NCBI GenBank assembly: GCA_013314855.1
Contig: JABUEW010000001.1
Span: 88,377 to 140,463 of the forward strand
Direction: 5' to 3'
Origin: Bacillota bacterium
Lineage (GTDB): Bacteria; Bacillota; Clostridia; Acetivibrionales; DUMC01
Length of the DNA: 52,087 bases
This document shows, piece after piece, positions 7,836-38,629 of the stretch. A program made the position numbers and the translations under genes. A model generated the notes under the pieces. It searched no databases. It saw nothing but the letters and a program-made list of their open reading frames with translations, and was not told the origin of the DNA. How positions within the stretch are numbered: the stretch's first letter is position 1; every line of letters begins with the position of its first letter.

Positions 7836-8031
7836 TTATTTACACGAAACCTTCATCCACTTGGCATCATTGGCCTCATCGCTAGTCTTCACGTTAAGTG
7901 TTGAGCTGTCTACTAAGAATATATATGAAGTGGTTATAATTCTTGTGTGCGGATCTCTGTCCATATCTCTCCAGGTATAGTTACTGTCAAGTTTAAGTTG
8001 GCAATTTTCTTTTTCATTTTTCATCCACGTA
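7836..8031 (-). pseudogene. Nudix hydrolase remnant
   Basis: The minus-strand frame reads NYTWRDMDRDPHTRIITTSYIFL followed by [11 protein letters not shown]. This matches the segment before the Nudix box in ADP-ribose/NUDIX hydrolases (typical text: DRDPR.RVIS.AY.AL ... DDA.EARW). The Nudix box itself (GX5EX7REUXEEXGU) is absent, so only a non-catalytic piece survives. It begins inside the end of the glutamate dehydrogenase gene and ends at 7836. With the adjacent ManB piece it marks a region of gene loss. Confidence 0.65.
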
Positions 8032-10846: not shown

Positions 10847-11998
10847 TCACAACCAGCCGGTAAGTTCCGCAAGAAGCCGTGTATATTCAACAAAATTGGG
10901 CCATGATATATCAGGAGGGACGCCATGGTCACAACCGGGTATAAATCCTCCATCTTTTAATAGTGGAGGAACCACTCTCATAACTTCATTTACCATATCC
11001 TTTCCACCCTTTGCGATAGCTCTTTTATCAATTCCTCCTGTATAAGCCATATTCTTGCCGTAAAGCCGCCTGTATTCTACTATATCATTATAAGCTGCAA
11101 CTTCTATAGGATCACACACATTTATTCCGGACTCAATCCAGATAGGTATTAATTCTCCAACATATCCGTCAGAGTCCATGTCAACTATAGGACATCCACT
11201 TGCTTTTATTTCTTTAACCCAGCGTTTATACGTCGGCATAAGGAATTCACGGGTCATGGCCGGTGAAATCATACTCTTTGCCTTATATGCCATATCTTCC
11301 GATATATGAACTTTGTCCAGTTTTACCTTATTAATAAAACGGGCCATTACCTTTGAAACAAATTCAGTCCAAAATTCAATCATTTCATGGACAAAATCAG
11401 GCTCCTCAATAAATTTGATACACAAGTTTTCAAATCCAAGCCATTCCCTCAACTGCCAGAAAGGCCCATTTACATTTATTCCTACAACGTAATCCCTGTC
11501 TTTAAGCTTTTCACAGATTTCATCAAGATTTTCAGGTAAACGTCCGGTGGTATCGGGATTATAACGTTTTTTCATTTCCTCCCAGTCTTCCCTGGTTTCT
11601 ACCGGAAACTTGTGCCATTTCCTTGTGACAAAATCTTTGGCTGACCTTATATATGTATAGTCATATTTGTCGGATATTTCAGTTATCGCGCCCATCCAGT
11701 CCTGTACAATATAGTGCCCGTCTTTATGTTCTAATACCTTTTCTTCGAATTGAGGAATCATCTTAAAGTCTACATTCAAATATACCCTATCAGCTTTAGC
11801 CGGTTCAGGCAAGCCCAACATATCCATCAAAGCATCGTAGTAATTTACCCCTTCAGGCAAACCCTGATTGTGCCATGCAGCTAACGTAGATTCTCTCGGT
11901 CCCCCAGGCTGTAACGGAATTTTGTCAGGGTTGCCGAAAAGCAGTGTTTCAAGGTATCTCTCCCTCTCCGTCATTTTCTTATTAGACCACTCTCTCAT
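10847..11998 (-). CDS. UroD/MtaA-superfamily protein
   Basis: A 383-residue TIM-barrel protein of the uroporphyrinogen decarboxylase/methyltransferase superfamily. Visible family segments are the N-terminal TERERYLETLLFGNPDKIPLQ (core RERYLETLLFGNPDKIP), the mid-chain ISEDMAYKAKSMISP, and the DMDSDGYVGELIPIWIESG and AYTGGIDKRAIAKGG segments near the C-terminus. The HxC zinc motif of corrinoid methyltransferases such as MtaA is not seen, so activity is unclear. Heme synthesis is unlikely given the sugar-catabolism surroundings. The ATG at 11998 follows AGGAGG by 10 bases; the open TTG 24 bases earlier precedes the ribosome site. A damaged relative lies at 14085-14726. Confidence 0.8.
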   Translation of the reverse strand: MREWSNKKMTERERYLETLLFGNPDKIPLQPGGPRESTLAAWHNQGLPEGVNYYDALMDMLGLPEPAKADRVYLNVDFKMIPQFEEKVLEHKDGHYIVQDWMGAITEISDKYDYTYIRSAKDFVTRKWHKFPVETREDWEEMKKRYNPDTTGRLPENLDEICEKLKDRDYVVGINVNGPFWQLREWLGFENLCIKFIEEPDFVHEMIEFWTEFVSKVMARFINKVKLDKVHISEDMAYKAKSMISPAMTREFLMPTYKRWVKEIKASGCPIVDMDSDGYVGELIPIWIESGINVCDPIEVAAYNDIVEYRRLYGKNMAYTGGIDKRAIAKGGKDMVNEVMRVVPPLLKDGGFIPGCDHGVPPDISWPNFVEYTRLLAELTGWL

Positions 11999-29866: not shown

Positions 29867-31615
29867 TTATTCTTCAGGATAGTTCTCCCTTGGTGCATAA
29901 TGGGTGTGAAGCAGTTCATGGGCCTTATGGCTTCCAGGTTCTCCTAAATACTCTTTATAAAGCCTTTGCACATGTGGGTTTTCATGTGACTTCCTTATGG
30001 GCATATTCTTGTCTTCTTCATATATTGCTTTAGCCCTTTCTTTCCTTATATCTATCCAGCTTCTGACTTCAGAAAGCTGTATAGGCTGGCCACCGCCATT
30101 TACACAACCGCCCGGGCAAGCCATTATTTCAACAAAATGGTAATCTGCCTCTCCTGCTTTTATTCTATCAAGAAGCTTTCTGGCATTACCCAATCCATGA
30201 GCAACAGCCGCTTTTAATTTAAAGTCGCCAATTTGAATTTGAGCTTCTTTTATACCTTCAACACCTCTAACATCAGTATATTCTATATCCTCATGAGATT
30301 CTCCTGTCAATATGTCTGCCACTGTCCTTAAAGCTGCTTCCATGACTCCACCTGTTGCACCGAATATAACACCTGCTCCAGTTGCTTCTCCCATAGGCTC
30401 ATCAAAGGTGCTGTCAGGTAAACCTTTAAAATCTATACCTGCTTCCCTTATCATCCTGGCGAGTTCTCTTGTAGTTAATACAACATCAACATCCGGATAT
30501 CCTGTAGCTGCCAGTTCCGGTCTCCTGGCTTCAAACTTTTTAGCAGTACAAGGCATAATAGATACTACAAATACTTTCGACGGATCTATTCCCATCTTCT
30601 CTGCATAGTAAGATTTTAAAACCGCTCCAAACATTTCATGCGGCGATTTGCAGGAAGAAAGGTTGTCAAGGAATTCCGGATAGAAATGTTCACAGAACTT
30701 TATCCATCCAGGGCTGCATGAAGTTATTAAAGGCAGTTTCCCACCATTTTTAATCCTGTTTATAAGTTCGGTACCTTCCTCCATAATAGTCAAATCTGCT
30801 GCTGTATCAGTATCAAATACCTTATCAAAGCCCAAATGCCTTAACGCTGATACCATCTTTCCGGTTACTCTTGTGCCAATAGGCATACCAAACTCTTCCC
30901 CGAGGGCTACCCTTACAGCAGGAGCAGTCTGGACAACTACATGGAGATCATCGTTTGCCAATGCACCCCATACCAGTTCTGTACTATCTTTTTCCCTGAG
31001 GGCACCAACAGGACATACATTAATACACTGGCCGCAAGTAACACAGGGCACATCGTTTAATGATCTATTAAACACAGATGAGACTATAGTGTCAAAACCT
31101 CTCTCAACTGTATCAATAGCCGCTACTTTTTGTATATTCTTGCACATGCTTACGCAGCGTCTGCACAATATACATTTATTAGGATCCCTCACGATTGAGG
31201 GAGAAAAATCGTCCAAAGGCATTCTGTGGGTTTCTCCATTAAACCTGATATCTTTAACATTCAATTCTTCAGCCAGTTTTTGCAGTTCACAGTTACGGCT
31301 TCTTACACAGGTAAGACAACTTCTGTCATGGTTTGATAGAATAAGCTCTAAAGTAACTTTCCTTGCCTCTCTTATAGCAGGACTTTGAGTCCTAATTACA
31401 AGTCCCTCCGATACAGGATACACGCATGCCGCCTGAAGGCTCCTGGCTCCTTTTATTTCTACTACGCACATCCTGCATGCTCCTATCTCATTAATATCTT
31501 TTAAGAAGCAGAGGGTAGGGATCGATATATTTGCTTGTTTTGCAGCTTCAAGTACGGTAAAGTTTTTAGGTACCTGAATTTTCCTATCATCTATTGTAAT
31601 GTTTACCATTTCCAT
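29867..31615 (-). CDS. hydA: [FeFe] hydrogenase catalytic subunit HydA of the trimeric NADH/ferredoxin enzyme
   Basis: A 582-residue H-cluster subunit. In order it has an N-terminal [2Fe-2S] domain (C36, C47, C50, C64), a His-Cys cluster (HDRSCLTCVRSRNC, ~96-109), two [4Fe-4S] ferredoxin motifs (CILCRRCVSMC ~148-158; CVTCGQCINVC ~191-201) and the H domain. H-cluster motifs are TSCSPGW (298-304), MPCTAKKFE (354-362) and EIMACPGGCVNGGGQP (496-511). The L1 motif has Ser where the textbook motif TSCCPxW has the second Cys. With HydB and HydC it should use NADH and reduced ferredoxin to make H2. AGGAGG precedes the ATG, and it is the last gene of the operon. Confidence 0.96.
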   Translation of the reverse strand: MEMVNITIDDRKIQVPKNFTVLEAAKQANISIPTLCFLKDINEIGACRMCVVEIKGARSLQAACVYPVSEGLVIRTQSPAIREARKVTLELILSNHDRSCLTCVRSRNCELQKLAEELNVKDIRFNGETHRMPLDDFSPSIVRDPNKCILCRRCVSMCKNIQKVAAIDTVERGFDTIVSSVFNRSLNDVPCVTCGQCINVCPVGALREKDSTELVWGALANDDLHVVVQTAPAVRVALGEEFGMPIGTRVTGKMVSALRHLGFDKVFDTDTAADLTIMEEGTELINRIKNGGKLPLITSCSPGWIKFCEHFYPEFLDNLSSCKSPHEMFGAVLKSYYAEKMGIDPSKVFVVSIMPCTAKKFEARRPELAATGYPDVDVVLTTRELARMIREAGIDFKGLPDSTFDEPMGEATGAGVIFGATGGVMEAALRTVADILTGESHEDIEYTDVRGVEGIKEAQIQIGDFKLKAAVAHGLGNARKLLDRIKAGEADYHFVEIMACPGGCVNGGGQPIQLSEVRSWIDIRKERAKAIYEEDKNMPIRKSHENPHVQRLYKEYLGEPGSHKAHELLHTHYAPRENYPEE

Positions 31616-31633: not shown

Positions 31634-33436
31634 TTACACATTCTTAAATATGGCCTTAAATGGACATTTTTCCATACAGGTTCCACACTTAATGCACTTA
31701 TCCTGGTCTATGACATAAGGTACTCCCCTTTGTCCGCTAATACATTTAACAGGGCAGTTCCTAGCACAAATTCCACAGCTCTTGCAAAGTTCAGCATTAA
31801 TTACATAATGCATCATTGACTTACATACACCTGCAGGACACTTCTTGTCCCTTACGTGCGCCTCATACTCATCCCTGAAATACCTTAAAGTACTCAATAC
31901 AGGGTTTGGTGCAGTCTGGCCCAGACCGCAAAGGGCCGATGCCTTAATGTTCTTTGCAAGTATTTCCAGTTTCTCAATATCTCCTTCTTCACCCTTGCCC
32001 CCGGTAATCCTCTCTAAAATCTCCAGCATCCTCTTTGTACCAATACGGCATGGAGGACACTTTCCGCAGGATTCATCAACCGTAAATTCGAGGAAGAACT
32101 TTGCAATGTCAACCATGCATGTATCTTCATCCATTACAATGAGTCCGCCCGAACCCATCATAGACCCTAACTGGACAAGCGTGTCATATTCTATGGGTGT
32201 ATCAATGTGACTTGCAGGAATACATCCTCCGGAAGGACCTCCTGTCTGGGCTGCTTTAAATTTCTTACCGTTGGGTATTCCACCGCCAATGTCATATATT
32301 ACTTCCCTTAGGGTTGTACCCATAGGTATTTCAACAAGGCCAGTATTATTGATTTTACCGCCTACTGCAAACACTTTCGTACCCTTGCTCTTTTCGGTAC
32401 CAATAGAAGCAAACCATTCCGGACCTTTTAATATAATCACAGGTATGTTTGCATAAGTTTCAACATTGTTCAACAGTGTAGGTTTCTGCCATAATCCCTT
32501 TACAGCCGGGAAAGGAGGTCTTGGTCTTGGTTCACCTCTTTTTCCTTCTATTGAAGTCATAAGAGCTGTCTCTTCACCGCAAACAAAAGCCCCTGCTCCT
32601 AATCTCAATTCAATATCGAAAGAAAAACCGGTACCAAAAATGTCCTCACCCAACAGGCCATACTCTCTCGCCTGTTTTATTGCAATGTCCAGCCTCTTTA
32701 CTGCTATAGGATACTCAGCTCTAACATAAATAAAGCCTTGGTTCGCACCAATGGCATATCCTGCAATTATCATTGCTTCAATAACAGAATGAGGGTCTCC
32801 TTCAAGAATACTTCTATCCATGAATGCACCAGGATCACCTTCGTCTGCATTACAGCATACATATTTTATATCATCCTGACTTTTAGCGGCAAATTCCCAT
32901 TTAAGTCCTGTGGGGAAACCTCCGCCGCCTCTTCCTCTTAAACCCGACTTCTTTATGGTATCGATTACTTCTTCAGGTTCCATTTCAGTCAAAACTTTTG
33001 CCAATGCCTTATAACCGTCATAAGCTATATATTCGTTAATGTCCTCGGGATTAATTATTCCGCAGTTTCTTAATGCTATCCTCAATTGCCTTTTGAAGAA
33101 ATCTACTTTTTCGAGAGACTTAGCGGAAGTATCCTCTTCTGTCTGTATATCACTCAGTAAAAGCCTCCTTACAATTCTTCCCTTAAGCAAGTGCTCTTCA
33201 ACTATTTCTTTAACATCCTCAGGTTTGACCATTGTATACATGGAACCTTCAGGATAAACTACAACAATAGGACCTTGGGCACATAAACCGAAACATCCTG
33301 TCTTTATCACTTTAACTTCATTCTCAAGTTTGTTATTTTTTAACTGCACCTCAAACTCTTCTATGATTTTTCCTGAATTTGATGACGTACAACCAGTACC
33401 TCCACAAACTAGTACATGCGACCTATATATTTGCAT
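31634..33436 (-). CDS. hydB: Hydrogenase NADH-binding subunit HydB (NuoF-like)
   Basis: A 600-residue flavoprotein. It has an N-terminal thioredoxin-like [2Fe-2S] domain (C11, C16, C48, C52) and a NuoF core with FMN/NADH site GLRGRGGGGFPTGLKWE (~165-181) and NADEGDPGAFMDR. An SLBB segment and the NuoF cluster ESCGKCPPCRIGT follow. Two C-terminal [4Fe-4S] ferredoxin motifs (CKSCGICARNCPVKC, CIKCGTCMEKCPFK) complete it. It takes electrons from NADH. The frame is open back to 33514, but those 26 extra codons overlap the upstream ferredoxin-like gene and precede the AAGGAGGG site, so the ATG at 33436 is used. Gap to hydA is 18 bases. Confidence 0.96.
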   Translation of the reverse strand: MQIYRSHVLVCGGTGCTSSNSGKIIEEFEVQLKNNKLENEVKVIKTGCFGLCAQGPIVVVYPEGSMYTMVKPEDVKEIVEEHLLKGRIVRRLLLSDIQTEEDTSAKSLEKVDFFKRQLRIALRNCGIINPEDINEYIAYDGYKALAKVLTEMEPEEVIDTIKKSGLRGRGGGGFPTGLKWEFAAKSQDDIKYVCCNADEGDPGAFMDRSILEGDPHSVIEAMIIAGYAIGANQGFIYVRAEYPIAVKRLDIAIKQAREYGLLGEDIFGTGFSFDIELRLGAGAFVCGEETALMTSIEGKRGEPRPRPPFPAVKGLWQKPTLLNNVETYANIPVIILKGPEWFASIGTEKSKGTKVFAVGGKINNTGLVEIPMGTTLREVIYDIGGGIPNGKKFKAAQTGGPSGGCIPASHIDTPIEYDTLVQLGSMMGSGGLIVMDEDTCMVDIAKFFLEFTVDESCGKCPPCRIGTKRMLEILERITGGKGEEGDIEKLEILAKNIKASALCGLGQTAPNPVLSTLRYFRDEYEAHVRDKKCPAGVCKSMMHYVINAELCKSCGICARNCPVKCISGQRGVPYVIDQDKCIKCGTCMEKCPFKAIFKNV

Positions 33437-33461
33437 TTGCAACCCTCCTTCACACATTCGC

Positions 33462-33836
33462 TTATTTATTCTTTTCTTCAGCTCCAATGGTATAGTCAAG
33501 ACAAACCCTTCCATTTACAATATGCTCTGCTACTACCCTGGCAGCCTTTTCAGCAGTCATTTTTACATAGGTAACTTTTTCCCCTTTTTCATCAACGACT
33601 TCCACTATAGGTTCTAGCCTGCATGCACCAATACAGCCGGTCATAGTAACCTTAACATCGTTAATGTTCCTCCTCTTAAGTTCCTCTAAAAATGCATTCA
33701 TTACCGGCCTTGCGCCTGCTGCTATACCGCAGGTAGCCATTCCCACAACTACTCTCATCCGTACATCTTGATTTCTTACACTCATTTGTTCAAGAGCTTT
33801 CTTTCTAATTGCTTCCAACTCAGTTATGGATTTCAC
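33462..33836 (-). CDS. Thioredoxin-like [2Fe-2S] ferredoxin-fold protein of the hydrogenase operon
   Basis: A 124-residue small protein related to the [2Fe-2S] domain of NuoE/HydB. The signature GMATCGIAAGARPV (~32-45) and TGCIGACRLEPIVEVV (~66-81) give C36, C68 and C72. The fourth Cys expected four or five residues after C36 is missing; C112 is the only other one. The cluster may be incomplete or use C112. Proteins of this kind are often found between NuoE-like and NuoF-like hydrogenase genes. Its start overlaps the end of the ATPase-domain gene by 17 bases, so translation is coupled. Confidence 0.88.
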   Translation of the reverse strand: MKSITELEAIRKKALEQMSVRNQDVRMRVVVGMATCGIAAGARPVMNAFLEELKRRNINDVKVTMTGCIGACRLEPIVEVVDEKGEKVTYVKMTAEKAARVVAEHIVNGRVCLDYTIGAEEKNK

Positions 33837-34399: not shown

Positions 34400-34906
34400 C
34401 TATGCAGGTATTTCCATTTGTTTGTATTTTTCAATAATTCTCTCTATATCTTCGGGTTTTAATCTGCCGTAAACCTCACCATTAATCATAATAACAGGAG
34501 CCAATCCGCAAGCACCGACACACCTGCAGGCTTCTAATGAAAACAGTCCGTCTTCAGTGCAATCCCCTACATGTATGCCCAATTTTTCCTGAAGCTTTTC
34601 AAGTATTAAATTTGCTCCTTTTACATAACATGCAGTTCCCATACATACCTGAATATTATATTTGCCCTTGGGTTTGAGAGAAAACTGCGTATAGAAGGTT
34701 ATTACCCCATATATTTCAGAAAGAGGTACACCCAAACCTTCAGATATTTTCTTCTGTACGCTCAACGGTAAATACCCGTATACTTCCTGTGTCTCATGAA
34801 GTACAGGAATTAGAGCACCTTTTTGGTCTTTATGCTTTTGTATAATTTCCAGCAATTTCTGCTCCCTTTCATCAACACATCCGCCGCAGCATTTGCCTCC
34901 GTCCAT
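34400..34906 (-). CDS. hydC: Hydrogenase subunit HydC (NuoE-like)
   Basis: A 168-residue [2Fe-2S] subunit related to the 24-kDa subunit of complex I. The helical N-terminal half includes LIPVLHETQEVYGYLP (~32-47). The thioredoxin-like half carries the cluster ligands C88, C93 (CMGTAC) and C129, C133 (CRCVGAC). An extra N-terminal CCGGC (residues 6-10) is notable. It passes electrons between HydB and HydA in the cytoplasmic trimer. TAGGAGG precedes the ATG. It is the first gene of the hyd operon, with a ~135-base leader, a consensus promoter and a Rex-type operator upstream. Confidence 0.95.
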   Translation of the reverse strand: MDGGKCCGGCVDEREQKLLEIIQKHKDQKGALIPVLHETQEVYGYLPLSVQKKISEGLGVPLSEIYGVITFYTQFSLKPKGKYNIQVCMGTACYVKGANLILEKLQEKLGIHVGDCTEDGLFSLEACRCVGACGLAPVIMINGEVYGRLKPEDIERIIEKYKQMEIPA

Positions 34907-35016: not shown

Positions 35017-35034
35017 ATGTTAAGTATTTAACAA
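35017..35034. promoter_or_regulatory. Rex-type operator for the hydABC operon
   Basis: ATGTTAAGTATTTAACAA matches the Clostridia Rex consensus TTGTTAANNNNTTAACAA at 17 of 18 counted positions (first base A). It lies just downstream of the predicted transcription start, a roadblock position. Confidence 0.8.
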
Positions 35035-35189: not shown

Positions 35190-35906
35190 TTACTTATTAT
35201 ACTTAAGCCTGTTTATTAAGCATATGATATCCTTTTTGTCAAGTTCAATAAAAGTTTCCCGCTCAAGAATATCTCCCAGGTTATGAGCATCCGATGATTT
35301 TATAACTCTGAATTTTTTCAGTTGAGGATTTGTTTCGAGATATTTATCAAGATCACACACCCGTGACACTTCTAGGCAATTTATGCTTATTTCATTCGGA
35401 ACCATACCAAGATTTGATATTATGCTGTACGAATCCCTATCTATATGGGCGGGTATCATAGCCCCATTTAATTTTTCAATTATATGAAAAGCTTCTTCCA
35501 GGCCTATATCGGCTGCTATTAGAAGCATTCTTTTTAATTTTTTTCTAATGTTGTCATTTTCGTCCACGATTATTTGTTCACCAAATATATCCTCCCTGTT
35601 TTCCAAAGGAGGCATAGCCTTGTAAACCACATCCTGCATTTTCATAGCTTTTTCAATATCAGGGAAAAGGCATACTACATGTACCTCTTCTCTAGTCTCA
35701 AGCTCCATTCCAGGTACTGCCAAAATCCCTGCTTTTTCTGCGCACTTCAACACAGCTTCTGCATTCTCTACCGAATTATGGTCTGTAACAGCAATAATAT
35801 CCAGACCTTTAATAACAGCCATCTTTACAATATTATTAGGGGTCATATCATTCTCTGCACATGGCGAAAGAGAGGAATGAATATGCAAATCAATGTAATA
35901 TTTCAT
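35190..35906 (-). CDS. PHP-domain phosphoesterase of the hydrogenase sensor module
   Basis: A 238-residue PHP protein. Metal motifs are YIDLHIHSSLSPCAEND, AVTDHNSVENA, PGMELETREEVHVV, MIPAHIDRDSYS and VIKSSDAHNLGDI, a complete trinuclear set. Its length fits TrpH/YciV-like nucleotide or 3'-5' phosphoesterases. The ATG at 35906 overlaps the stop of the DRTGG gene by 17 bases and has GGAGGG just 4 bases before it. ATG at 35927 is the alternative. As the last gene of the sensor operon it could degrade a nucleotide signal or phosphorylated product made by the other members; that is inference. Confidence 0.85.
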   Translation of the reverse strand: MKYYIDLHIHSSLSPCAENDMTPNNIVKMAVIKGLDIIAVTDHNSVENAEAVLKCAEKAGILAVPGMELETREEVHVVCLFPDIEKAMKMQDVVYKAMPPLENREDIFGEQIIVDENDNIRKKLKRMLLIAADIGLEEAFHIIEKLNGAMIPAHIDRDSYSIISNLGMVPNEISINCLEVSRVCDLDKYLETNPQLKKFRVIKSSDAHNLGDILERETFIELDKKDIICLINRLKYNK

Positions 35907-36228
35907 GAGCCCTCCAGCAAATTTCATATGCGCTCATTTCTGAACTTAATACAACAATGTTTTCTTCCGAGGCTTTTTTTATAGTTGCCTCTTCTACTTT
36001 TATCCCTTCCGGTACAATTATGCATGGAATTTCCAACAATACTGCCACCGCAACTGTATTCAAGTGGGTCTGTACCGTTATCCAGGCATCTCCCTTATTT
36101 GCATGGGACATAACCCAGCTCAAAAGGTCGCACACATATACGCCGGTTATTTCTCTTTCTAATCCTTTATCTCCAGTTAACACCCTCATATTTAATTCTC
36201 TGGCAAATTTTTCAACATTCACAAACAC
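35890..36228 (-). CDS. DRTGG-domain protein (second copy)
   Basis: A 112-residue single-domain protein of the DRTGG type, a small regulatory fold found with CBS domains and phosphotransacetylases. Recognisable parts are LNMRVLTGDKGLEREITGVYVCDLLSWVM (core TGVYVCDLLSWV), AWITVQTHLNTVAVAVLLEIPCIIVPEG and the final IVVLSSEMSAYEICWRAHEIL. It is a paralogue of the protein at 38176. Start may be GTG 36228 or GTG 36222; GAGG spacing favours the latter. It sits between the HydS-like gene and the PHP gene. Ligand-binding function is presumed from the family. Confidence 0.82.
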   Translation of the reverse strand: MFVNVEKFARELNMRVLTGDKGLEREITGVYVCDLLSWVMSHANKGDAWITVQTHLNTVAVAVLLEIPCIIVPEGIKVEEATIKKASEENIVVLSSEMSAYEICWRAHEILH

Positions 36229-36312
36229 AACACCTCGAACTTAACAACCACTGCACTAAAGTACAGGGGTTATGTCATTTTAATGGCAGATAATTTTAAA
36301 AGCTCTGGAAGC

Positions 36313-37740
36313 TTATTTTAACTTTGAACTTTTATTGCCATCCTTGTCCAATACAGGAGGCATTTTTGCCTCAAGTTCTGCCATCTGTACTGCTAGACTC
36401 CTTACTCTTTCTCTTAGTTTAAATATGCAGTCGGTCTCATTTGCATTGCCTCGTACAATATCTTCCGCCAATGCCCTGCAGCTCGGTGCTCCACATGCAC
36501 CGCAGTCTAAGCCGGGGAGCTCATCGTTTAACTTTTCAAGGGTTTCCAGTTTCTTAATAGCCCTAGTCAAATCTTCATCCAGCTTCATGATAGGCCTGTG
36601 TTCAATGTCTCCTGTCCATAAAAAGTTTTCAAATTTATCTTCAACAATACCGGAATCAACATCAGTAACAGCTGTACCGGCAGTAGCATAAGTCCCAGTA
36701 TCGGCAACAGCAGCAACAACAGCAACATCAGTATCACTGGTAATACCAGTATTAACAAGCATCTTTTCCGCTTCTTCCATATGTTTTTTTAACCTTCTCC
36801 TTGACAAATAGGCATTTTCTACAGTTAAGGGACCTCCCAAACATCCTCCTGTACATGCCAGTGCTTCTACAAAATCTATGTCTTCCAGCCTTTCATTCTC
36901 AATTTCCTCAAAAATTCTTATCACATTGTGGATACCATCAACTGCAAGGTAATTTTCTATTCCTAAAGCAGAGCTTTCCCCTCCGGAGCTGGCCCAGCGT
37001 ATACCCTCCATCCCTGCTTGTTCAAGGGTTTCATAAACTTTTCCATCTTTCATGGCATCAAGTAACTTAAGGTAAATATCCTTCATGGATATTGCCCCAT
37101 CCACCAACGACTTGTCCGTTTCATAGGGGGCTTTCACACTTGTAACCTTTGCAGCACAAGGAGTAATAAAAAAAACACCCACATCCCCTTCTTTGAAGCC
37201 ATATTGTTTTTGGGCCTTGGCCTTTGCCATTCGTGCAGCTACTTCCATAGGAGATGCAATTCTCAAAATGTTATCAATAAGGTTTGGGAACCTTACCTGG
37301 ATTAATCTTACAACAGCAGGGCAGGCAGATGAAATAATAGGTTTTTTATAATTACCTTTTTTTATAAACTTTTTTGTTGCCTCAGTTACAAATTCTGCAG
37401 CTTTTGCTACTTCATAAACGTCATCAAAACCTATAAGCTTTAAAGCAGATAATATCCTTTTTCTTGAATATGTTAAATTAAACTGCCCGTAAAGAGCTGG
37501 GGCAGGCAAGGCTATCTTATATTTAAAGTTTTTAAGTATTTCCATGGAGTCTGTTATGGCTTTTTTGGCATGGTAGGGGCAAACCCTTATACATTCACCA
37601 CAATCTATGCATCTTTCTTTTATTATGCGAGCTTTGCTCTTTCTAACCCTTATAGCTTCTGTGGGACATCTTTTTATACAATTAGTACATCCTCTGCAGG
37701 TTTCTTCGTCCAGCGTTACAGAATGAAAGTAATTCTGCAT
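36313..37740 (-). CDS. HydS-like putative sensory [FeFe] hydrogenase
   Basis: A 475-residue protein. Two [4Fe-4S] motifs (CRGCTNCIKRC, CIDCGECIRVC, ~15-54) lead into an H-cluster domain, and a RnfB-type Fe-S segment (DCGACGAPSCRALAED ... C437) closes the protein. H-domain motifs are SSACPAVVRL (137-146), ITPCAAKVT (192-200) and EALACTGGCLGG (292-303). The four cubane cysteines C140, C195, C296 and C300 are present, but the proton-relay Cys is Ala139, as in Thermotoga maritima HydS. Sensing rather than turnover is therefore likely. A Thr/Ala/Val/Asp-rich insert (~334-365) links the H domain to the C-terminal Fe-S domain. GGTGAGG precedes the ATG. Confidence 0.9.
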   Translation of the reverse strand: MQNYFHSVTLDEETCRGCTNCIKRCPTEAIRVRKSKARIIKERCIDCGECIRVCPYHAKKAITDSMEILKNFKYKIALPAPALYGQFNLTYSRKRILSALKLIGFDDVYEVAKAAEFVTEATKKFIKKGNYKKPIISSACPAVVRLIQVRFPNLIDNILRIASPMEVAARMAKAKAQKQYGFKEGDVGVFFITPCAAKVTSVKAPYETDKSLVDGAISMKDIYLKLLDAMKDGKVYETLEQAGMEGIRWASSGGESSALGIENYLAVDGIHNVIRIFEEIENERLEDIDFVEALACTGGCLGGPLTVENAYLSRRRLKKHMEEAEKMLVNTGITSDTDVAVVAAVADTGTYATAGTAVTDVDSGIVEDKFENFLWTGDIEHRPIMKLDEDLTRAIKKLETLEKLNDELPGLDCGACGAPSCRALAEDIVRGNANETDCIFKLRERVRSLAVQMAELEAKMPPVLDKDGNKSSKLK

Positions 37741-37757
37741 TTACCTCACCTTACTAG

Positions 37758-38195
37758 TTAATTTATATGTATTTCAATAGTAACAGTAGTACCCTTTCCT
37801 AATTCAGTATCTATCTGAAGCTTGTCTGAATACTTTTTCATATTGGGAAGTCCCATGCCTGCTCCAAAACCCATTTCTCTTATTATGTCGGGAGCCGTAG
37901 AATATCCTTCTTGCATTGCAAGCTCTATATCCGGAATTCCAGGTCCCTTATCCCGAACCCTTATAGTGATTTTTTTACTGTCTATTTCTACCTCTGCAAC
38001 ACCTCCATTAGCATGGATAACAGCATTCAATTCTGCCTCATACATTGCAATAGAAGTTCTCTTAATAATATCAGGTCTAATTCCCAGTTGGTTAAGCATC
38101 TTTTTTACATTACTTGAGGCCTCTCCTGCAAGGGTAAAGTTGTCTCCCGGTATATTATAGCAAAGTTTTACAGATTCATTGTCCAATCCATCCAT
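37758..38195 (-). CDS. RsbW/SpoIIAB-like ATP-binding protein
   Basis: A 145-residue HATPase_c protein of the anti-sigma-factor serine kinase type. The N box reads SIAMYEAELNAVIHANGG (~48-65), the G1 box RVRDKGPGIPDIE (~77-89), and the G2 segment FGAGMGLPNMKKYSD (~109-123). No His phosphoacceptor domain is present. It overlaps the end of the first DRTGG gene by 20 bases and precedes the HydS-like gene by 17 bases, so all three are translated from one message. It could phosphorylate or bind a partner in response to the HydS-like protein; no sigma or anti-anti-sigma gene is in view. Confidence 0.87.
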   Translation of the reverse strand: MDGLDNESVKLCYNIPGDNFTLAGEASSNVKKMLNQLGIRPDIIKRTSIAMYEAELNAVIHANGGVAEVEIDSKKITIRVRDKGPGIPDIELAMQEGYSTAPDIIREMGFGAGMGLPNMKKYSDKLQIDTELGKGTTVTIEIHIN

Positions 38196-38535
38196 CCCCT
38201 CCGGTAATGCCTTGTGAAAAAAGTTTACCGCAAGCTATAAACATGGGATACTCGGTTGTCAACAAAATTATACTTCTTTCCCTTGCCATACCGATTATAG
38301 AATCTCCCGGCTTTTTACCCCTCACAAATATGATAACTTTTATATCCATCATCTCCGCTGTTCTTATTACCTGGGGGTTGACCAACCCGGTAAGTAATAT
38401 GTCCTTATCACCGGCATAAGCCATAACATCACTCATTAAATCAGAACCGCAGGCAGTTTTTACATCAAGTTCCAGCTCCTGTTCTCCAGTTAGGATTCCC
38501 GCATTAAGTATTTCAATTATTTCTTTTATTCTCAT
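38176..38535 (-). CDS. DRTGG-domain protein (first copy)
   Basis: A 119-residue DRTGG-fold protein: IIEILNAGILTGEQELELDVKTACGSDLMSDVMAY (core TACGSDLMSDVMAY), ILLTGLVNPQVIRTAEMMDIKVIIFVRG, and IILLTTEYPMFIACGKLF. It is the first gene of the sensor operon and a distant paralogue of the protein at 35890. Its promoter overlaps a perfect Rex-type operator. Function is likely ligand binding or protein-protein regulation, by family. The leader between promoter and gene contains AAGGAGACAAC and a GTTAGGTGT before the ATG. Confidence 0.83.
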   Translation of the reverse strand: MRIKEIIEILNAGILTGEQELELDVKTACGSDLMSDVMAYAGDKDILLTGLVNPQVIRTAEMMDIKVIIFVRGKKPGDSIIGMARERSIILLTTEYPMFIACGKLFSQGITGGDGWIGQ

Positions 38536-38600
38536 ACACCTAACCTCTTTTTAGCATTAAGTCAATTTGTTGTCTCCTTCTTTAGTGTAATTATAGTGTA

Positions 38601-38629
38601 ATTATAACACATTGTTAATGAATTAACAA
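38601..38629 (-). promoter_or_regulatory. SigmaA-type promoter of the sensor operon
   Basis: Minus strand: -35 TTGTTA (38624-38629), 17-base spacer, extended -10 TGTTATAAT with TATAAT at 38601-38606. Confidence 0.85.
38612..38629. promoter_or_regulatory. Perfect Rex-type operator for the sensor operon
   Basis: TTGTTAA-TGAA-TTAACAA matches the Clostridia Rex consensus exactly. It covers the -35 and most of the spacer, where bound repressor would exclude RNA polymerase. It also overlaps the xylB stop codon. Confidence 0.88.

Follow-up and report, generated by a model that had tools for sequence, protein, structure and literature searches.

Five tightly packed genes on the minus strand of a Bacillota genome form a conserved module centred on HydS, a sensory-type [FeFe] hydrogenase, and lie ahead of the hydABC hydrogenase operon. 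The stretch analysed, referred to as the window, comprises 52,087 nucleotides of contig JABUEW010000001.1 (assembly GCA_013314855.1, positions 88,377 to 140,463 of the forward strand) from a member of the order Acetivibrionales, class Clostridia. From 38535 down to 35190, the genes encode a DRTGG-domain protein (DRTGG-1, D1), a SpoIIAB-like ATPase, HydS, a second DRTGG protein (DRTGG-2, D2) and a PHP phosphoesterase. The module recurs more often than chance allows, with the same gene order in most loci across the phylum. At a probability of roughly 55%, the five proteins make up one H2 or redox signalling complex built round a group D HydS, which adjusts hydABC by way of a SpoIIAB-type kinase with DRTGG proteins as its targets. 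A previous interpretation of this DNA, the sequence-only reading, had proposed five packed or overlapping genes at 35190-38535, and all of its open reading frames and domains are confirmed. The sensor type, the nearby kinase and the hydABC link are known, while D1, D2 and PHP as fixed companions were not found in the open-licence literature searched.

Conservation of the five-gene module

The neighbourhood of HydS was read at 138 loci, 40 from the order of the window, 59 from the class sample and 39 from the phylum sample (loci and genomes carry L and G numbers). On the same strand near HydS, D1 is present at 130 loci, the ATPase at 135, D2 at 130 and PHP at 121 (order, class and phylum loci, respectively: D1 39, 57 and 34; ATPase 40, 57 and 38; D2 38, 55 and 37; PHP 38, 51 and 32). 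The order D1-ATPase-HydS-D2-PHP is kept on a single strand in most of them. Contig ends explain two of the eight misses of D1, two of three for the ATPase, four of eight for D2 and six of 17 for PHP. At L076, L080 and L088, PHP and HydS are on different contigs. L099 has HydS and D2 split by a 4.4 kb insert of genes that resemble sugar-metabolism genes by eye, and HydS is accompanied by the ATPase alone at L155 and by D2 alone at L172.

Within the order, 48 of 58 genomes have HydS; one of these is the source of the window, and the other 47 copies are 63-71% identical to its protein over the first 320-470 residues. The class sample has HydS in 184 of 391 genomes (E ≤ 1e-60) and PHP in 182 (E ≤ 1e-15); 180 genomes have both and 205 have neither (phi 0.97). 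The sequence-only reading had named free separation of the genes in other genomes as one ground for refutation, and they do not separate freely: both are present in 180 of the 186 class genomes with either HydS or PHP, and each companion is found at 121-135 of the 138 loci. HydS occurs without PHP in four class genomes (G093, G126, G228 and G253) and PHP without HydS in two (G274 and G405). The PHP gene of G405 lies where a 6.8 kb contig ends, and a HydS gene may therefore have gone unseen there. HydS is also found in 151 of the 398 genomes of the phylum sample (E ≤ 1e-70), and the module is also found in Thermoanaerobacterium saccharolyticum (L184).

The open reading frames of 100 loci were clustered and each family was judged by eye from one representative. 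The commonest families outside the module and the hyd genes are uridine kinase-like (26 loci), elongation-factor-like (20 loci, on the opposite strand in 19) and a third family (16), with the rest at 11 or fewer. Since these families are far rarer than the module genes, general synteny does not explain the module. Pairwise protein distances at 35 loci correlate with r of 0.42-0.61 among the five proteins and 0.16-0.29 with HydB, the pairs not being independent of each other.

Gene fusions

Fusions between module genes, which cannot be seen from the window alone, were sought with domain profiles built in this analysis. D1 is fused to the ATPase in L156, L159 and L179, which represent three families; HydS is fused to D2 in L157 and L182, which belong to one family, and the ATPase to HydS in L183. 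This chain of D1, ATPase, HydS and D2 repeats the gene order. The Pfam DRTGG profile scores above its cut-off in L159, L157 and L182 and below it in L156 (22.4 bits), and is unreported in L179. The ATPase is also joined to CBS domains, as one stretch in L153 and as two stretches in each of L162 and L171, which form one family. Several other long frames were set aside, L042 because of a run of N, and L149, L152, L165 and L168 because their extra ends may be start-codon artefacts. The D1-ATPase, ATPase-HydS and HydS-D2 fusions point to one complex. They name D1, the ATPase and D2 as likely partners of HydS and give a probable order of their contacts, while PHP is named by synteny and co-occurrence.

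The sensory-type hydrogenase

HydS consists of two N-terminal 4Fe-4S sites (a Fer4 pair), the Fe_hyd_lg_C domain and a C-terminal iron-sulphur domain (PF04060, 50.6 bits). Each of the 16 cluster Cys residues is present in 97% or more of the 99 sequences compared: C140, C195, C296 and C300 at the H-cluster, eight in the N-terminal part, and C413, C416, C421 and C438 at the C-terminal cluster. The proton-relay Cys (C299 of CpI), which the sequence-only reading had noted as missing, is indeed replaced by A139, immediately before the cubane ligand C140. Ala occupies this position in 91 of the 99 sequences, while in a motif comparison HydA of the window has Cys there. By motif matching, Leu stands at the M497 position in 70 of the 99, and at the M353 position Thr stands in 66 and Ser in 32. 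A Pfam search of HydS gives no match to the PAS domain, the mark of group C, up to an E value of 0.1. By these features, HydS fits the published group D (M2e) sensory [FeFe] hydrogenases.

Residues from about 325 to 365 of HydS (36648-36768 of the window) form an Ala/Val/Thr-rich linker between the H-domain and the C-terminal cluster, which lies outside the matches to most relatives. In a low-coverage Thermoanaerobacterium metagenome-assembled genome, the HydS frame is broken in two (L186:8992-10307), perhaps by a sequencing error.

The ATPase and the DRTGG proteins

The nearest solved protein to the ATPase is SpoIIAB (1til/1l0o, E about 1e-11), followed by YycG, CheA and RsbW at 2e-4 to 4e-4, and the score against the SpoIIAB family profile is 66.9 bits, with a cut-off of 135. 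The ATPase had been described as RsbW-like; SpoIIAB is the closer relative. Of 98 sequences, 97% or more retain the N-box residues E53 and N57, and the glycine boxes are as in SpoIIAB. The N-box Glu is the catalytic base in SpoIIAB; E53 is presumably the catalytic Glu here and N57 the Mg-binding Asn of the N-box. In sequence alignment the ATPase thus shows the GHKL fold with N-box Glu and Asn that marks SpoIIAB/RsbW kinases, and it is a probable kinase. Among the 32 commonest neighbour families of the 100 loci, whose representatives were read by eye, nothing was recognised as a sigma factor, a STAS protein or a transcription factor, and the target of the switch is therefore not named. A strict anti-sigma role of the ATPase is rejected on the same ground.

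D1 and D2 score only just above the Pfam DRTGG cut-off of 25.2 bits. The AlphaFold model of D1, with a predicted local distance difference test score (pLDDT) of 89.4, matches the DRTGG proteins 2ioj (AF1212; template-modelling score of 0.80 on the query length) and 3l31, and further fold matches are the DRTGG part of clostridial pyrophosphatase and HPr kinase/phosphatase. We take the CBS/DRTGG regulatory region of clostridial pyrophosphatase to have been solved with adenosine monophosphate (AMP) and diadenosine tetraphosphate (Ap4A). D34, S37, T51 and N57 are invariant among 38 D2 sequences. A D-L-[M/L]-S motif with an invariant Ser is common to D1 and D2; its Ser column holds Gln in 2ioj in a single, weak full-length alignment.

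In many loci a further GHKL ATPase gene, ATP2, comes after PHP or NuoE, even where no hyd operon directly follows (L092, L106 and L130), and the module may have it as a sixth gene. A SpoIIE-type PP2C gene lies directly upstream of D1 in one locus (L135:12005-13171, Pfam SpoIIE 51.9 bits) and recalls HfsC of group C; as a general partner it is rejected, L135 being the sole case among the scanned loci.

The PHP protein

Positions H15, H17, D49, H50, E75, H83, H161, D213 and H215, which mark the PHP superfamily and which we take to be metal ligands, are shared by 97% or more of the 87 sequences compared. The model of the protein (pLDDT 97.1) is nearest in fold to Endonuclease Q (EndoQ; Z 22.0, root-mean-square deviation 2.5, 209 aligned positions by VIA-align), followed by the putative phosphoesterase 3o0f (Z 17.7), 2anu (Z between 16 and 18), RNase AM (7ug9/9etk, Z 16.9/16.5) and AMP-bound 2yb1 (Z 16.1). 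The tyrosine phosphatases CpsB and YwqE reach Z of 7.8-8.5, far below EndoQ, and a protein phosphatase by homology is therefore rejected. The sequence-only reading had seen in the five genes a complete pathway that senses, transmits and degrades a signal, which is not supported in that form. There is no support for a second messenger that the module itself would make, because no nucleotide cyclase or synthetase was recognised among the conserved neighbours, of which representatives were judged by eye with no family search, though the fold of PHP is nearest to nucleic-acid and nucleotide phosphoesterases. A messenger loop both made and degraded by the module is likewise rejected.

The same folds, together with the match of D1 to the DRTGG region of the pyrophosphatase and the CBS-ATPase fusions of three loci, would fit a post-transcriptional control. 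In it, PHP would be a nuclease or nucleotide phosphoesterase that acts on hyd mRNA, adenosine 3′,5′-bisphosphate (pAp), Ap4A or a similar compound and is gated by the HydS complex, while the DRTGG proteins would bind adenine nucleotides. Proximity in fold gives no substrate, however, and the lack of a cyclase or nucleotide-making gene recognised by eye among the conserved neighbours also speaks against it; this control seems rather unlikely.

Association with hydABC

The sequence-only reading had taken hydABC as the natural output. The operon is indeed the module's commonest neighbour, with HydB within about 10 kb at 92 of the 138 loci (25 of 40 in the order, 37 of 59 in the class and 30 of 39 in the phylum), but the link is not new, being already in print (PMC3561251, PMC3608648, PMC8163306). 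HydB is matched with an E value printed as 0 in 145 of the 184 class genomes with HydS and in 26 of the 207 without it; a weaker match is found in a further 33 and 111 genomes, respectively, and six genomes with HydS have none at 1e-150. The counts near the loci and genome-wide indicate that hydABC is the favoured, not the obligatory, company of the module.

In L081, L082, L101, L112, L126 and L129 the module lies inside the hyd operon, in the order NuoE-D1-ATPase-HydS-D2-PHP-ATP2-Trx-HydB-HydA (Trx being a thioredoxin-like 2Fe-2S protein), and so it does in L084 and L109 as far as the contigs reach. This interleaving, the frequency of ATP2 and Trx as hyd neighbours and the failure to recognise a conserved transcription factor would suit a HydS that serves not as a gas sensor but as a slow redox valve or assembly partner of HydABC, in a complex that modulates HydABC directly, for example by phosphorylating HydB or Trx, with no output in expression. 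Such direct modulation is unlikely, given that HydB is not found near 46 of the 138 loci as fetched, some of them at contig ends, and that the distances of the module proteins follow those of HydB weakly.

HydA of the window (29867-31615) carries the L1 motif TSCSPGW, with Ser where HydS has the cubane-ligand Cys. The same motif is present in 85 of 86 high-scoring HydA frames of the loci and TSCCPGW in one, and a single paper of the open-licence literature contains TSCSP together with hydrogenase; cubane coordination in HydA of this type deserves attention.

Rex-like operators

Rex-like operators, absent from the sequence-only reading, precede both transcription units of the window. The match to TTGTTAANNNNTTAACAA upstream of D1 is the best in the window and the only perfect site in the 4.43 Mb genome, in which eight sites have at most one mismatch, against four for a reversed control pattern. 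The palindrome contains the first hexamer of the best promoter-like site of the region (38590..38618); such promoter-like sites are not enriched there (15, with a shuffle mean of 13.9). The second Rex-like site lies just below a promoter-like TTGAAT-17-TATAAT at 35074-35046, upstream of NuoE. A Rex-type protein is encoded in the genome (PF06971, 80.7 bits, at G000:C95), and both marks of a Rex regulon, an operator in the promoter and a rex gene, thus appear to be present.

Among the relatives, sites with at most two mismatches within 300 base pairs (bp) upstream precede D1 at 21 of 95 loci (0.6% in shuffles), 18 of the 21 being in the window's order, and NuoE at 44 of 65 (1.4% in shuffles). 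The internal genes have hardly any (ATPase 1 of 97, HydS 1 of 97, D2 1 of 96). The controls are mononucleotide shuffles, in which dinucleotides are not kept. The five Thermoanaerobacterium-type loci (L144, L145 and L184-L186) have no site better than three mismatches. Rex control is rejected as a universal feature, since clear sites before D1 fall mainly in the window's order and none is present at the Thermoanaerobacterium-type loci. In L147 (G578), from a single-contig genome outside the class, Rex-like sites at 7839-7856 (two mismatches) and 11092-11109 (one mismatch) lie close to where NuoE and D1 begin, and such sites therefore extend beyond the window's order.

For other hydrogenase genes, control by Rex has been proposed (PMC5886521). 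In the window's lineage Rex, responding to NADH/NAD, probably controls both promoters, and signals of H2 and NADH may therefore meet at this locus. That the Rex sites are the sole relevant regulation, with HydS a low-rate metabolic hydrogenase co-regulated with hydABC, is very improbable: the paired sites and the encoded Rex-type protein agree with it, but the kinase-DRTGG-PHP company and the fusions are left unexplained, the D1 sites are uneven across lineages as described, and the related TamHydS has a low turnover (PMC11803613).

Proposed mechanism

In the preferred signalling complex, HydS would read H2 or the redox state of ferredoxin at the H-cluster, and a change in its shape would be passed to the SpoIIAB-type ATPase and to the DRTGG proteins bound to it. 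The ATPase would be a Ser/Thr kinase with a DRTGG protein as its substrate or switch partner, in the role that a STAS protein has in classic partner switching; the candidate phosphorylation site is the invariant Ser of D-L-[M/L]-S. Adenine nucleotides, read by the DRTGG and CBS domains, may bias the switch, and PHP would reset it or act on a bound phospho-compound, nucleotide or RNA. The main output would be the amount or activity of the HydABC-type hydrogenase, the level of which may be set by Rex in the window's lineage. A bolder form, tentative and held at less than even odds, is that this is an undescribed cassette in which an H2-reading hydrogenase drives a SpoIIAB-type kinase with a DRTGG partner instead of STAS and with PHP as the eraser. 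If so, partner switching would have been rebuilt with domains that sense adenine nucleotides, and across much of the phylum a single operon would read H2, NADH (through Rex) and energy charge.

Several observations weigh against the signalling complex. L133 keeps the ATPase, D2, PHP and hyd genes with neither HydS nor D1 beside them. PHP is missing near HydS at L086, L154 and L160, and none was found in the genome of L086 (G093) at E ≤ 1e-15; among the 39 phylum loci, D1 is missed in five and PHP in seven. All fusions were found at these 39 loci; the 99 loci from the order and the class to which the window belongs have none. Genes of the hydABC type occur without the module in the 26 HydS-lacking genomes with HydB at an E value of 0, and the loci with no HydB nearby suggest that the output may lie elsewhere. 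PHP is nearest to nucleic-acid and nucleotide enzymes, with CpsB and YwqE far behind (Z about 8), and the commonest neighbour families, read by eye, hold no recognised transcription factor, sigma factor or STAS protein. Searches of the open-licence literature brought up no experiment on the module as such.

Layout of the locus

The coordinates of the module and its neighbours are given in Table 1. The DRTGG, HATPase_c, Fe_hyd_lg_C, PF04060 and PHP matches of the module proteins all exceed the curated Pfam thresholds. The ATPase gene overlaps D1 by 20 bp; gaps of 17 bp and 84 bp separate it from HydS, and HydS from D2, respectively. PHP possibly starts at 35903, which gives a 14 bp overlap with D2. 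Upstream of the module lie xylulokinase-like and uridine kinase-like genes, named by eye.

Table 1. Features of the module and the adjoining hyd operon, in window coordinates
Feature	Position	Strand	Evidence
Rex-operator-like palindrome TTGTTAATTCATTAACAA	38612..38629	no strand	0 mismatches to TTGTTAANNNNTTAACAA
Sigma-70-like promoter site TTAACA-17-TATAAT	38590..38618	-	11/12 consensus matches
D1, 119 residues	38176..38535	-	Pfam DRTGG 27.6 bits; AlphaFold model
SpoIIAB-like GHKL ATPase, probable kinase, 145 residues	37758..38195	-	HATPase_c 53.3 bits; SpoIIAB match
HydS, group D (M2e) sensory-type [FeFe] hydrogenase, 475 residues	36313..37740	-	Fe_hyd_lg_C 125.7 bits
D2, 112 residues, GTG start	35890..36228	-	DRTGG 28.1 bits; Hpr_kinase_N 31.5 bits
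PHP phosphoesterase, 237-245 residues	35190..35927	-	Pfam PHP 40.8 bits
Second Rex-like site TTGTTAAATACTTAACAT, upstream of hydABC	35017..35034	no strand	1 mismatch
NuoE/HydC-like 2Fe-2S subunit, hyd operon gene 1	34400..34906	-	PF01257 188 bits
Second GHKL ATPase (ATP2), 188 residues	33820..34386	-	HATPase_c 54 bits
Thioredoxin-like 2Fe-2S protein	33462..33836	-	PF01257 23.8 bits, just below cut-off 24.8
HydB (NuoF-like)	31634..33514	-	Family profile searches
HydA, [FeFe] hydrogenase group A6	29867..31615	-	NF040763 953 bits, cut-off 765

Comparison with known systems

The sequence-only reading had held the partner and the output to be undescribed to its knowledge; the sensory assignment and the nearby kinase are already in print (PMC3561251, PMC3608648, PMC8163306). 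Group D M2e proteins are listed as sensory, and sensory hydrogenases are usually upstream of bifurcating ones, often with a histidine or serine kinase between them (PMC3561251). The same paper lists Cthe_0335 with Cthe_0340-0342 and Athe_1292 with Athe_1297-1299; we infer that the gap in numbering would exactly accommodate D2, PHP, NuoE and ATP2. In all Thermoanaerobacter strains, the bifurcating genes are described as preceded by those for a group D hydrogenase and a histidine kinase (PMC3608648), and a histidine kinase-like ATPase and an 'AraC' regulator flank TamHydS of Thermoanaerobacter mathranii (PMC8163306); at a guess, the latter is a mis-named DRTGG gene. The DRTGG and PHP companions and the fusions were not found among the matches listed in searches of the open-licence literature, where the one paper with both DRTGG and hydrogenase concerns a Desulfovibrio mutant library.

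HydS resembles TamHydS, a group D protein, in its N-terminal and C-terminal 4Fe-4S clusters and in lacking both the proton-relay Cys and a PAS domain (PMC8163306, PMC13104023). It also resembles group D in having Leu at the M497 position, as matched by motif, and in lying near a GHKL ATPase and hydABC (PMC3561251, PMC3608648). Unlike reported group D proteins, it has Thr and not Ser at the M353 position, and its flanks here are the ATPase, DRTGG and PHP genes. For TamHydS, an H2-induced change in secondary structure has been reported (cited in PMC13104023). According to the same paper (PMC13104023, 2026), H2 does not reduce the C-terminal cluster, and the interaction partners are still to be identified. 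HydS of L146, a locus with the whole module, has Cys at 20 and 379, the sites mutated in TamHydS, and Ser and Leu at the two Met positions; the likeness is only suggestive, since three other loci fit both Cys numbers too.

Group C HydS/HfsB of Thermotoga maritima, Ruminococcus albus and T. saccharolyticum likewise combines a sensory-type H-cluster protein with phospho-signalling neighbours. Group C, however, has PAS and the hfs operon also has the serine-phosphatase-like HfsC (PMC11837493), while the module has neither, except for the PP2C gene of L135. Literature on Tsac_1545-1550 leads to the hfs operon and not to this module. Ethanol yield rises about 1.8-fold when hfsA or hfsB is deleted (PMC5707799). 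Hydrogenase mutants have been obtained in T. saccharolyticum, which produces ethanol (PMC12288451). The H2-dependent shift between ethanol, acetate and H2 is relevant to biofuels and to fermentation at large.

The DRTGG fold and, at three loci, the fusion of CBS domains to the ATPase are shared with the CBS/DRTGG region of Mn-dependent pyrophosphatase (3l2b, 3l31) and with AF1212 (2ioj). Unlike these, the DRTGG domains of the module are free-standing, carry their own D-L-[M/L]-S motif and have no pyrophosphatase part. With SpoIIAB/RsbW partner switching the module shares the ATPase fold, the N-box and the glycine boxes. It differs in that no sigma factor or STAS protein is recognised nearby, and the DRTGG proteins stand in the place of STAS.

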